From a virus, in IMG/VR virus record IMGVR_UViG_3300042470_000577, positions 1-37,116 of that record: a stretch of DNA of 37,116 nucleotides. One strand, written 5' to 3'. Each line of letters starts with the position of its first letter. The stretch's first letter is position 1. The position numbers and the translations under genes are program-made. Shown here piece after piece: positions 33,836 to 37,116 of this stretch. Below the pieces are notes generated by a model. That model searched no databases. It was not told the DNA's origin and saw only the letters and a program-made list of their open reading frames with translations.

Positions 33836-34138
33836 TTAAGTAAGATGTTTATTTTTAAGATTTTCAACTTCTTGTCTTAAATCTTTTCGATCTTCTTCAC
33901 ATTCATCAATTCTTGTTTTAGCAACATTCAAATTAACTTTTAAATTGTTGTTTTCTGTTTCTAACTTTTTGTAGTTTGCTTCAATCTTTCTCCATAAGAT
34001 TGCAACAGCACCAGCTAGAATCGTGATAATGGTATTCGTTACCAAGGAATCATCTCCATCAGAAAAAGCAAGGATGGTTTGAATAGATGTGAATACAGGG
34101 AAGCAAGTTGTAATAAAAGTAAATAAATTATCATTCAT
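33836..34138 (-). CDS. Small membrane-anchored coiled-coil protein, 100 aa
   Basis: Residues ~28-50 form one membrane-type segment (TNTIITILAGAVAILW), and residues 50-98 a coiled coil with regular Leu/Asn/Lys heptads (KLETENNNLKVNLNVAK). It starts within the stop of the upstream gene (TAATG). Size and layout resemble an i-spanin or a holin-like protein, but its place in the head operon is unusual for lysis genes. Confidence 0.6.
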   Translation of the reverse strand: MNDNLFTFITTCFPVFTSIQTILAFSDGDDSLVTNTIITILAGAVAILWRKIEANYKKLETENNNLKVNLNVAKTRIDECEEDRKDLRQEVENLKNKHLT

Positions 34139-34560
34139 TACAAAGTAATCCCAGTCGGATATGGATTAAAAAAGAATTGGCTTGTAGTAAATGCGTACCC
34201 CATATTTACTGAATACTGACCTGCAATTAAATCACCATGATCAGCAATTTTTCCAGCAGTTGCAGAAAGAACATACCAAAGACCTTTAGTTAGAACTGTA
34301 CCAACAGATACCAAAGATCCAGGTTCAGCAAAAACAATAGGCTGGTTTGCTGCAGCATCAGCTAAAGCCAATCTAAGATTTTGAGCATTAGCATTTCCTG
34401 ATTTCTCAAGTGTTGTAGCGTCTGCTTTGTACCACTTGTTATCAGAAGATTTTACATAAATAAATTGACCTGCTTCTAAAGCTTCACCTGCAATACCTGT
34501 ATTGCGAGTTGTGTTAGCTGTAGGAAGCACGTTTGCTTTAGTAATCGTAATAGTAGCCAT
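34138..34560 (-). CDS. Capsid-associated protein of DUF2190-like type, 140 aa
   Basis: The protein is rich in Ala, Thr and beta strands: TITKANVLPTANTTRNTG, then LEAGQFIYVKSSDNKWYKAD, and GTVLTKGLWYVLSATAGKI. It looks like the small decoration or head proteins that often follow the terminase. AGGAGG lies before its ATG, the best ribosome-binding site in this part, so it should be well expressed. Confidence 0.6.
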   Translation of the reverse strand: MATITITKANVLPTANTTRNTGIAGEALEAGQFIYVKSSDNKWYKADATTLEKSGNANAQNLRLALADAAANQPIVFAEPGSLVSVGTVLTKGLWYVLSATAGKIADHGDLIAGQYSVNMGYAFTTSQFFFNPYPTGITL

Positions 34561-34609
34561 TTGGTATCCTCCTGGTAAGAAACTAGAAATTTATGCCGTA
34601 TCTGTCAAA

Positions 34610-37021
34610 TCACATCTTTAGGTAGAGTGGTCCATCAGAAAATACCTGATATTCCTGGGAAGAAGTCCCATCTCTATCATCTCCTGCTTCCCATAAAATA
34701 TCGTTGCAAGCATCGGATAGAGTATCCACAATGTCGTCTTTCTGATTCCCATCTCCAGTCCAATTAAATACTTCGTCTTCTGCTGCTTTAAGCCAATGAG
34801 CATGTTCTGGAAACCATACTCGTCCATGTTCCATCTTTACTTGTGCAGTAGTACTATTAACAACTTTATCTGCTTGTTTCGTAATAGGTTTTACATTTAA
34901 TCCGTAAACTTGGCAGTATTGAAACACACCTCTACCAGCACCATTAGCTTCAATTTTTACATACTGAGGTCTCCATTTTTTGTACATGATTTGGATACGC
35001 TTTACGACTTCAGGAATCTCATCCTGGAACCTATCCATATCAAGCCACAACAAATGAAAATCCTGAGTTAATCCCCATACCGATATAACAGTGTAGGATG
35101 GGTCTTTTCCTTTAGTGAATTCCGCCATACCAGAACGAAGACTAGCTGCAGGGTCCACTGTGATAAAGATCTTTTGAAGAGATTTCCAATCTATAGGACG
35201 ACCAACCCCATTCTTTCCCAGAACAAAGTAATCTCCTCGAACACTGTAATAACGCGACCATGCTCGTTTAAAACGACTATCAGGGTTAACTGCCCAGTTA
35301 CCATACTTGAGTCGGGCACGTTCAACAGGTGCTAATTCTTCTAGAGCTTTAGCATAAGCTTGCTGATCAATATAGGGATTATCACGATAAGAAGCTTGTA
35401 AGAAAGGTTTATCAGGATGACGACCAACCCAAACTACCGTGGTATCATCTTCTGGAATGGTATAGGGATCTCGACCATCTTGGGGTTCGATCTTGAATCT
35501 ATTACGAACCCATTCATGTCCTATGCCTCCAGGGTTTGTAGCACCTCGAACCCGAAGAGGTAATGACTTATAAAGTTGACACCATTCACAATTATCTACA
35601 TAGATAGGAGTTCCTTTATCATCTAACCTATGCTTAGGACATACTAATTTTCTCAAACGAGAAAACATATAAGTATAGTTAGATTCTTCATGCTGAGTGA
35701 CTTCGTCAAACAATATGCAATTTCGATTGACTAATCCCTCTTTTGTGATAAAGTGATTTTCATCGGCAACTGTTATATCGTAAACAGTTCTTTCTCCAAC
35801 ATACTCTGGATAATAAGTGACAAACGATGGGAAGACCTCTGAAGAATGAAGGCTGGATAAGTTATACGGGTGGTTGTACCAAAAAAGGTTCTTGTGGTTA
35901 TATATTTGAAAACGCGAAGTGGCATCCAAAAGCAAGAATGAATGGATGGGTTCTTCAGCACAGGCTAGTGATGGAGAAGAAACTTGGTAGGTTTTTAGAA
36001 GATGATGAAATTGTGCATCATATTGATCATGATAAGACGAATAACAATCCAAAGAATTTGATGATAACTGATAGGTATAATCATCATACCGATCACCATC
36101 CAGAGATGTTTCAAGGCAAGTTACATGATGTGACTGATACGGATGTTCTGGAATTTGTTGGAAAAAAGACAACTTTGGAGATAGCAGAATATTTTGGGGT
36201 AACTCATATGACTCTCCGAAGAAAATTTGGTCATTTGTTAATTTATCGTAGAAGTCCTCGAACAGTGGATGATCCTGAAGCGATTGAAATTGTTCGTAAA
36301 TATGGACCTGATTCAAATTGGGGATATCGTGATATGTTAAAGAATTTTGGTTTGTCTTTAAGTTTAATAAATCAGATCTGTGAAAAATACAACATTCAAT
36401 GGGTGAAGAAGAAACGAGACTCCATTGCCCAGTTGAAGTAAGAACCTTATGAGTAACACCTTGAACTTGATTCCCAATTCTTACACATTCCTTTTTCATT
36501 GATGGAAAAGTATGAGTAACTGGTTTAGGTCCAGATAAAGTCATTACCAAGTCATTGACTTTAATTAACTCTATTGCTTTATAGCTACCATCTCCCATTA
36601 AAACTTCAGTACCTTTTGCTACACATTGATATTCAGCAGATTGGTAACGAGTGTAAGCATTACTCTCACCGATATAACCAAACTGAAGACGAGCAGGATG
36701 TCCTGGTCTACCATCTGGATTAGTAGTAGGAAAATACCAGCAATGTTCATCTCCCTGCCATTTAGCATCGGTATCTGATAACCATTTAAATGATCTATCA
36801 ATAAGTGCTGATGGTTGTTTTAAATCTGTAAGAGTTCTTCTAAATACAATAGCTGCGTAACCAGGGATATGAACATACTGAAGTGCGATAGATAGTAGAA
36901 TATCAGACTTACCACCTCCAGCTTGTCCACCATAGAGAGCTTCCATGTGAGGTAACATCAAAAAACCAAGTTGTTTTGGAAATGGTTTATTCTTAATGTA
37001 TTTATTCAGAAGTGGTATCAT
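34610..37021 (-). CDS. terL: Terminase large subunit interrupted by an intein
   Basis: Numbered from the ATG at 37021 (803 aa). The ATPase half has Walker A YGGQAGGGKS (30-39) and, after the intein, Walker B CILFDEVTQ. The nuclease half has IFITVDPAAS, then KDPSYTVISVWG and DDIVDTLSDA, matching three acidic clusters of the RNase H-like nuclease. Terminase cuts concatemers and pumps DNA into the prohead. The intein occupies residues 133-434, directly before the Walker B strand. Without it the protein is 501 residues, a normal terminase length. A TTG codon one step earlier is an unlikely start; the gene overlaps its upstream neighbour by about 20 bases. Confidence 0.93.
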   Translation of the reverse strand: MIPLLNKYIKNKPFPKQLGFLMLPHMEALYGGQAGGGKSDILLSIALQYVHIPGYAAIVFRRTLTDLKQPSALIDRSFKWLSDTDAKWQGDEHCWYFPTTNPDGRPGHPARLQFGYIGESNAYTRYQSAEYQCVAKGTEVLMGDGSYKAIELIKVNDLVMTLSGPKPVTHTFPSMKKECVRIGNQVQGVTHKVLTSTGQWSLVSSSPIECCIFHRSDLLNLKTNQNSLTYHDIPNLNQVHIYEQFQSLQDHPLFEDFYDKLTNDQIFFGESYELPQNILLSPKLSFFQQIPEHPYQSHHVTCLETSLDGDRYDDYTYQLSSNSLDCYSSYHDQYDAQFHHLLKTYQVSSPSLACAEEPIHSFLLLDATSRFQIYNHKNLFWYNHPYNLSSLHSSEVFPSFVTYYPEYVGERTVYDITVADENHFITKEGLVNRNCILFDEVTQHEESNYTYMFSRLRKLVCPKHRLDDKGTPIYVDNCEWCQLYKSLPLRVRGATNPGGIGHEWVRNRFKIEPQDGRDPYTIPEDDTTVVWVGRHPDKPFLQASYRDNPYIDQQAYAKALEELAPVERARLKYGNWAVNPDSRFKRAWSRYYSVRGDYFVLGKNGVGRPIDWKSLQKIFITVDPAASLRSGMAEFTKGKDPSYTVISVWGLTQDFHLLWLDMDRFQDEIPEVVKRIQIMYKKWRPQYVKIEANGAGRGVFQYCQVYGLNVKPITKQADKVVNSTTAQVKMEHGRVWFPEHAHWLKAAEDEVFNWTGDGNQKDDIVDTLSDACNDILWEAGDDRDGTSSQEYQVFSDGPLYLKM
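35720..36625 (-). other. Terminase intein with antisense homing endonuclease
   Basis: The 302-residue intein starts CVAKGTEVLMGDG (block A), has GVTHKVLTSTGQW with the block B Thr-His near residues 190-191, and ends VYDITVADENHFITKEG-LVNRN before Cys. The C-terminal Asn and +1 Cys are normal, but the penultimate His is replaced by Arg. Between the splicing blocks there is no sense-strand endonuclease motif; instead ~205 residues of odd composition are the complement of the plus-strand HNH gene. Splicing blocks alone amount to about 95 residues, similar to a mini-intein. Confidence 0.88.
35827..36441 (+). CDS. HNH homing endonuclease encoded antisense inside the terminase intein
   Basis: A plus-strand frame of 204 codons starts at the ATG at 35827. 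It encodes HRLVMEKKLGRFL (45-57), EIVHHIDHDKTNNNPKNL (61-78) and NHH (85-87), the HNH nuclease core of many phage homing enzymes. A helix-turn-helix-like C-terminus follows (TLEIAEYFGVTHMTLRRKF). It is entirely inside the intein and oriented against the terminase, so it needs its own transcript. A GATAAT about 12 bases before the ATG could be a -10 box, but no good -35 is seen, and the ribosome-binding site (AAGTG) is weak. It is the only confident plus-strand protein gene. Confidence 0.9.
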   Translation: MGRPLKNEGWISYTGGCTKKGSCGYIFENAKWHPKARMNGWVLQHRLVMEKKLGRFLEDDEIVHHIDHDKTNNNPKNLMITDRYNHHTDHHPEMFQGKLHDVTDTDVLEFVGKKTTLEIAEYFGVTHMTLRRKFGHLLIYRRSPRTVDDPEAIEIVRKYGPDSNWGYRDMLKNFGLSLSLINQICEKYNIQWVKKKRDSIAQLK

Positions 37022-37116
37022 CAATATCTTTCAAATCAAGGATGTCTGTATTCTTATCCAACTTAACCCCAAATTCGTTAGCAAAAGCTTTAGCAATTTC
37101 TTTAGAACGAAATATG
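37002..37116 (-). CDS. C-terminus of an upstream protein, possibly small terminase
   Basis: The last 37 codons of a frame open to the window edge are visible, ending in a TAA at 37002 that overlaps the terminase start. The visible end is charged (RSKEIAKAFANEFG, then DLKDIDDTTSE). A small terminase subunit is expected here by gene order, but no motif is visible to prove it. Confidence 0.45.
   Translation of the reverse strand, partial: IFRSKEIAKAFANEFGVKLDKNTDILDLKDIDDTTSE

Follow-up and report, generated by a model that had tools for sequence, protein, structure and literature searches.

Phage terminase inteins with an HNH endonuclease gene on the opposite strand: an apparently undescribed class

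Introduction

Inteins are conventionally described with the endonuclease in frame with the splicing domains. Can an intein instead carry its endonuclease as a separate gene on the opposite strand? The question is raised by the gene for the large terminase subunit (terL) in IMG/VR virus record IMGVR_UViG_3300042470_000577, of which a stretch of 37,116 nucleotides (hereafter the window) was analysed. A sequence-only reading of the window had proposed that a free-standing HNH gene was inserted, in reverse, into a mini-intein within terL, and that the terminase strand had to stay open across it. Here we examine the locus and its relatives.

The intein in terL and the HNH gene opposite to it

The terL ORF, intein included, lies on the minus strand at 34610..37024 and encodes 804 aa, with matches to phrog_979 (1.4e-57) and Terminase_6C. 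Its start is likelier the ATG at 37021 than the TTG one codon upstream at 37024; the protein of a relative, L005, begins MIPVL. The N-extein, from the Walker A region to just short of Walker B, occupies 36626..37024 (minus strand) and is followed by an intein of 302 aa, or 906 nt (35720..36625, minus strand; terL residues 134-435), identified by TIGR01443 and by the empty site in L005, L006 and L007. The junctions read YQ/CVAKGTEV (C1) and VNRN/C (N302, then a +1 Cys), and the insertion point lies directly upstream of the Walker B motif (C-I-L-F-D-E).

The N-terminal splicing half, with Hint blocks A-B, covers intein residues 1-71 (36413..36625, minus strand; Hom_end_hint, 8.5e-7); the N-terminal junction residue is as required (CVAKGTEVLMGDG at residue 134, in block A), and the block B His, whose codon is at 36449-36451 (minus strand), is present in GVTHKVL and invariant in all 26 aligned members of the class described below, the Thr of TxxH being Gly here. 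The C-terminal half, with blocks F-G and the ending VNRN, covers residues 248-302 (35720..35884, minus strand; TIGR01443 intein_Cterm). Its penultimate residue is Arg rather than His. Terminase and intein form a single unsplit ORF, and the criterion for a fractured gene or split intein is thus unmet.

An AlphaFold model of the intein, built with 17 related inteins, has high confidence from residue 1 to about 60 (pLDDT about 80-95) and over most of residues 271-302 (82-92 for 271-300), with values below 50 for residues 72-247. Searched with Foldseek, the model matched the gp41-1 intein (E 1e-4, the nearest solved fold) and the PI-SceI, DnaB and Npu DnaE inteins. A Hint fold is therefore predicted at both ends, with predicted disorder between.

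The disordered middle (residues 72-247; 35885..36412, minus strand) has no family match and is the complement of the HNH gene, which runs on the plus strand at 35827..36441 (204 codons and a stop; HNH_3 of Pfam, 2.2e-10; phrog_10730, 3.3e-17). The HNH protein consists of an HNH domain (about residues 24-90) and a helix-turn-helix-like C-terminal part, is modelled by AlphaFold with a mean pLDDT of 82, and has all of the family-invariant H/N/H residues. Compared with solved structures its sequence gave no meaningful match; its model weakly matched I-HmuI in Foldseek. The sense-strand protein over the same stretch matched no endonuclease in Pfam, NCBIfam or PHROG scans, so the criterion of a bifunctional intein, an in-frame endonuclease domain, is not met. 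The element is an intein by its splicing domain, yet it lacks the defining in-frame feature of endonuclease-bearing inteins.

Assembly error can be excluded, because contigs L003 and L004, which come from other samples and are 99.7% identical to the window over 6-7 kb, are fully identical to it across terL from position 34944 on, through the intein. Separately, 18 of the 20 differences between the window and these contigs sit in 33863-34943 (1.1 kb); as far as nucleotide comparison can tell, this cluster suggests a recombination tract beside the intein-bearing gene.

Register of the two frames and the empty alleles

Each minus-strand codon spans positions 2 and 3 of one HNH codon and position 1 of the next, which bars the junctions NTT-A, NCT-A and NTC-A from the HNH gene. 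Across this gene the terL frame contains no stops, the other two antisense frames containing 8 and 14. When the HNH protein was recoded synonymously with the codon usage of the window, the terL frame stayed open in none of 20,000 trials. The sequence-only reading had described the opposite-strand arrangement, the 204-codon gene, the open minus strand and the three barred junctions; all of these hold exactly, coordinates included. Its view of the sense-strand middle, which it described as Ser/Tyr/His/Gln-rich, as complement-coded filler is supported by the comparative data below and has escaped one refutation it had named, a sense-strand endonuclease motif, which the profile scans did not find.

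Relatives with empty alleles place the insertion precisely. At the intein position L005, whose terL is 94% identical, reads GAATATCAA/ACAGTTTTATTTGATGAG, a clean empty site; the intein is likewise absent from L006, L007, L013 and L014, and L005 lacks the HNH gene too. The intein is thus an insertion at an exact point just ahead of the Walker B residues, where the +1 residue is Cys in the intein-bearing allele and Thr in the empty one. No clear co-conversion tract surrounds the insertion in the comparison with L005, the only one possible. The arrangement in the window is old, and was inherited or homed as a unit. Measured from the Asp-Glu of Walker B, the insertion point varies by one to three codons among Walker-B-site inteins of the class described below (window 35717-35722 compared with L182, L033 and others).

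A class of inteins with antisense HNH genes

We scanned IMG/VR and GTDB with an alignment of HNH relatives and found, unexpectedly, that many viral HNH matches lie antisense within long ORFs. Two further scans used HNH alignments of two groups and tested the enclosing ORF with a Hint profile. Together the HNH-based scans gave at least 125 loci with an antisense HNH gene in a Hint-positive ORF, every one in the same register; in GTDB genomes, none of 80 HNH loci among the matches listed was nested in such an ORF. A fourth scan was made with the N-terminal splicing block of Walker-B-site inteins as its only query: among the matches listed, 76 of 80 close relatives have an antisense HNH gene, always in register 2, and the other four are mini-inteins without one. 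The total is at least 201 IMG/VR loci (125 + 76) with an antisense HNH gene inside a Hint-bearing ORF, all in register 2. At 90% HNH identity these collapse to at least 111 clusters, a number to be preferred over that of loci, since some loci are the same contig fetched twice.

The splicing features recur throughout. A terminal Asn followed by C, S or T was located in 106 of the 111 cluster representatives; of the remaining five, four end in a related form (QKN/S) and one is cut by the contig end. Pfam detects Intein_splicing or related Hint families in many members of the class, not all. By a strict regular expression, at least 93 of 111 clusters keep an intact catalytic pattern in the HNH protein, and several that it missed differ only in spacing. 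L343 is among the few relatives that look degraded.

Host genes are mostly terminases, with a few helicases, and insertion occurs at two positions in the Walker A loop and at the Walker B motif. The layout of the HNH protein differs by site, with about 51 residues before the motif and 175 after it at Walker B, and about 107 before and 60-75 after at Walker A; this fits site-specific enzymes and also simple descent. In L193 (2388-3422 and the part of the ORF upstream of it) a single terminase ORF holds both a LAGLIDADG-type in-frame intein at Walker A (judged by eye) and an antisense-HNH intein at Walker B.

Inteins lacking the HNH gene (152 aa in L381 and L383, 190 aa in L368, 172 aa in L373) demonstrate that the splicing half exists without it. 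The HPY motif that faces the HNH N-terminus (intein residues 252-254 in the window) is kept in these four mini-inteins; the ends of the HNH gene may therefore overlap true intein sequence. HNH relatives were also found in named phages, where all those inspected are free-standing genes and none is antisense in an intein. Because HNH-less mini-inteins and free-standing HNH relatives both exist, insertion of an HNH gene into a mini-intein is plausible, although it is not established whether the mini-inteins are the ancestral state or deletion products. The proposal of the sequence-only reading survives to this extent, and the two kinds of relative it had suggested looking for, the intein without the insert and the HNH elsewhere, both turned up. 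The locus is, moreover, no unique accident: it belongs to a large class of divergent members that all use one register.

The survey also returned HNH genes overlapping other kinds of ORF. In L084:1-5236, L101:1610-3529, L114:1-3460 and L128:1-3358 (-), the HNH gene is antisense in register 0 (codon-aligned), and the enclosing ORFs encode giant non-intein polyvalent phage proteins (Kinase-PolyVal, LPD1/5/23/37); the L101 insert appears to split an inorganic pyrophosphatase domain. In L086, L098, L127 and L181, HNH genes on the same strand overlap a longer open frame and are possibly ShiLan-like (see below).

Selection on the overlapping frames

HNH codon position 3 lies opposite intein position 2, and HNH position 2 opposite intein position 3; opposite substitution patterns are therefore predicted depending on which protein is under selection. 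Because the source intein is known from three identical copies, measurements of selection had to come from relatives. The 45 pairs among ten close relatives have 1417:754:3221 substitutions at positions 1:2:3 of the HNH codons, and mean identity is 0.85 for the HNH protein vs 0.60 for the filler, with the HNH protein better conserved in 45 of 45 pairs. The wider set repeats the pattern: conservation is higher in the HNH frame than in the filler for all 392 pairs, and position 3 has changed more than position 2 in every one of them (the pairs share sequences and are not independent tests). On these substitution patterns, selection preserves the HNH protein, and the terL frame is here merely kept open.

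The register itself is informative. Under synonymous recoding 0.23 of 102 would be expected to be open in register 2, and 102 of 102 are (the set was chosen as such). Of 152 free-standing HNH cores, register 0 is open in 33, register 1 in 4 and register 2 in 13. Register 0 is thus easier to keep open, and the fact that the class uses register 2 alone suggests common descent or an unknown constraint.

Expression of the HNH gene

Across the class, a Shine-Dalgarno (SD) match of at least 5 nt precedes 34% of first HNH ATGs vs 2.4% of out-of-frame control ATGs at the same loci. The enrichment shows most clearly among Walker-A-site inteins; at Walker B, part of the matches (GAGGTC) may reflect only the conserved Asp-Leu codons of block F. 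In L050, L066, L076 and other Walker-A-site inteins, a Pro-Pro that recurs in the intein frame just before block F is the complement of the HNH SD sequence GGAGG. The HNH start of the source phage has only a weak SD, and a promoter scan of the window found promoter-like sites no more often than in shuffled sequences. All other long ORFs of the window lie on the minus strand, from which we infer that transcription of the HNH gene depends on a dedicated antisense promoter or on readthrough.

Proposed mechanism and alternative explanations

We interpret the element as a mobile intein with its homing endonuclease in a gene of its own, encoded in antisense; the strand complementary to that gene would be kept free of stops, which allows production and splicing of the host protein. 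We assign this reading a probability of roughly 0.87; splicing, antisense transcription, cleavage and homing are inferred. Translation of TerL would include the entire intein, Hint blocks A/B would fold together with F/G while the complement-coded middle loops out, and the intein would excise itself to leave an intact terminase. The HNH enzyme, made from its own antisense transcript, would cut intein-less terL alleles near the Walker B codons, and repair off the intein-bearing copy would move intein and endonuclease jointly. In the middle segment selection would act on the HNH protein, the terL strand being barred only from stop codons. Against this reading stand the weak SD and the lack of a promoter above chance in the window, the Gly in block B and the Arg before the terminal Asn, and the absence of a clear co-conversion tract.

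It is unlikely, though worth keeping in mind, that the HNH gene is an independent selfish endonuclease gene that targets other DNA and uses the intein as a safe harbour, the intein itself being immobile or passively moved. Free-standing HNH relatives are common in phages, and on the HNH tree the antisense label needs at least 12 changes, four of them forced by well-supported branches, so that several gains or losses are possible. Against this, the nested HNH genes share one register and one within-intein position across several insertion sites, their architecture differs between Walker A and Walker B inteins as expected if the enzyme fits its site, and the intein-less L005 has no HNH gene either. 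From sequence alone, a passenger HNH with another target cannot be excluded. Still harder to sustain is the view that the HNH frame is a non-expressed relic whose openness was inherited by chance. The weak SD and the lack of a clear promoter in the window would suit it, as would the few relatives that look degraded, but protein-level selection on the HNH frame in all 392 pairs, the catalytic pattern kept in at least 93 of 111 clusters and the class-wide SD enrichment contradict it for the class. The sequence-only reading had named proof of such an artefact as a refutation; for the class, the evidence runs the other way.

Two further readings deny that the element is a splicing intein at all, and we give both almost no credence. 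Nuclear group I introns can harbour endonuclease genes in antisense (PMC9548176), and the insert could be such an intron or another RNA element; yet terL is a continuous ORF with canonical intein blocks and a predicted Hint fold, and the criterion of a ribozyme structure is unmet, with no Rfam match in 35300-37116. Alternatively, the insert could stay in TerL unspliced, as proposed for the ShiLan methylase insertion: insertions of that type encode an overlapping HNH and are thought to remain in the protein (PMC11855218). ShiLan, however, has no splicing motifs, whereas Hint blocks A, B, F and G are conserved across the class described here, and retention of an insert at Walker B or Walker A of an essential ATPase should be lethal.

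Within the reading as a mobile intein, the number of origins is harder to judge, as the HNH tree, short of columns, does not separate a single origin followed by losses from several origins. We consider it an even bet that the class is a single ancient superfamily, in which a reversed endonuclease gene entered an intein once, in a fixed register; from there the two-strand element would have reached several motifs of terminases, and some helicase genes, in uncultured phages, the endonuclease diversifying to suit each site.

Relation to known systems

Dassa et al. (2009) reportedly described fractured genes in which split inteins flank a free-standing endonuclease gene (the gp41-1 type). Such loci share with ours a separate endonuclease gene between two Hint halves, and gp41-1 is the nearest solved fold; here, in contrast, host gene and intein form one unbroken ORF, over which the endonuclease gene lies in antisense. 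Phage HNH_3 endonucleases (phrog_10730 and relatives; I-HmuI-like) have the same HNH domain and HTH-type extensions, but those of named phages in our data are ordinary free-standing genes. Bifunctional inteins with an in-frame endonuclease domain, for example PI-SceI and the LAGLIDADG TerL inteins of mycobacteriophages Bethlehem and BAKA (PMC5050341), likewise combine a Hint splicing domain, which sits in TerL in the mycobacteriophage examples, with a homing-type endonuclease placed between blocks B and F. In the inteins described here, however, the endonuclease lies outside the intein polypeptide, in its own gene on the opposite strand and in a shifted register, and the in-frame middle is filler.

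Two systems resemble ours in gene layout. The ShiLan domain is a hidden out-of-frame HNH in phage methylases (PMC11855218), so that here too an HNH gene overlaps a long open host frame in a phage gene; its HNH is on the same strand, in a non-essential methylase and without a splicing element, whereas ours is on the opposite strand, inside an intein. I-DsqI of Didymium is encoded antisense within a nuclear group I intron, is expressed and cuts the empty site (PMC9548176). It shares the placement of an endonuclease gene antisense within a self-splicing mobile element, but that element is an RNA intron in rDNA whose sense strand is free to have stops, whereas the complement of a protein element must be stop-free. 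We found no description of an intein with an antisense endonuclease in the open-access literature, which agrees with the sequence-only reading, according to which no example was known; subscription papers and preprints were outside the scope of the search. Inteins with antisense HNH genes are apparently a widespread and so far undescribed class in uncultured phages.

Implications

A class with reverse-encoded endonucleases changes how inteins are recognized and annotated: annotation readily overlooks antisense HNH genes, since a longer gene overlaps them, and may list the inteins that carry them as lacking an endonuclease. For intein engineers, a middle that is disordered and freely replaceable is of practical interest, too. 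More than 100 independent sequences have two long antiparallel frames, one under protein-level selection and the other held mainly stop-free, and the class is a clean system for the study of overlapping genes; if it is indeed a single superfamily, few known sets of long protein genes that overlap antiparallel under selection would be larger. For the phages themselves, the arrangement suggests how a homing enzyme could be expressed apart from the host protein, possibly at another time.
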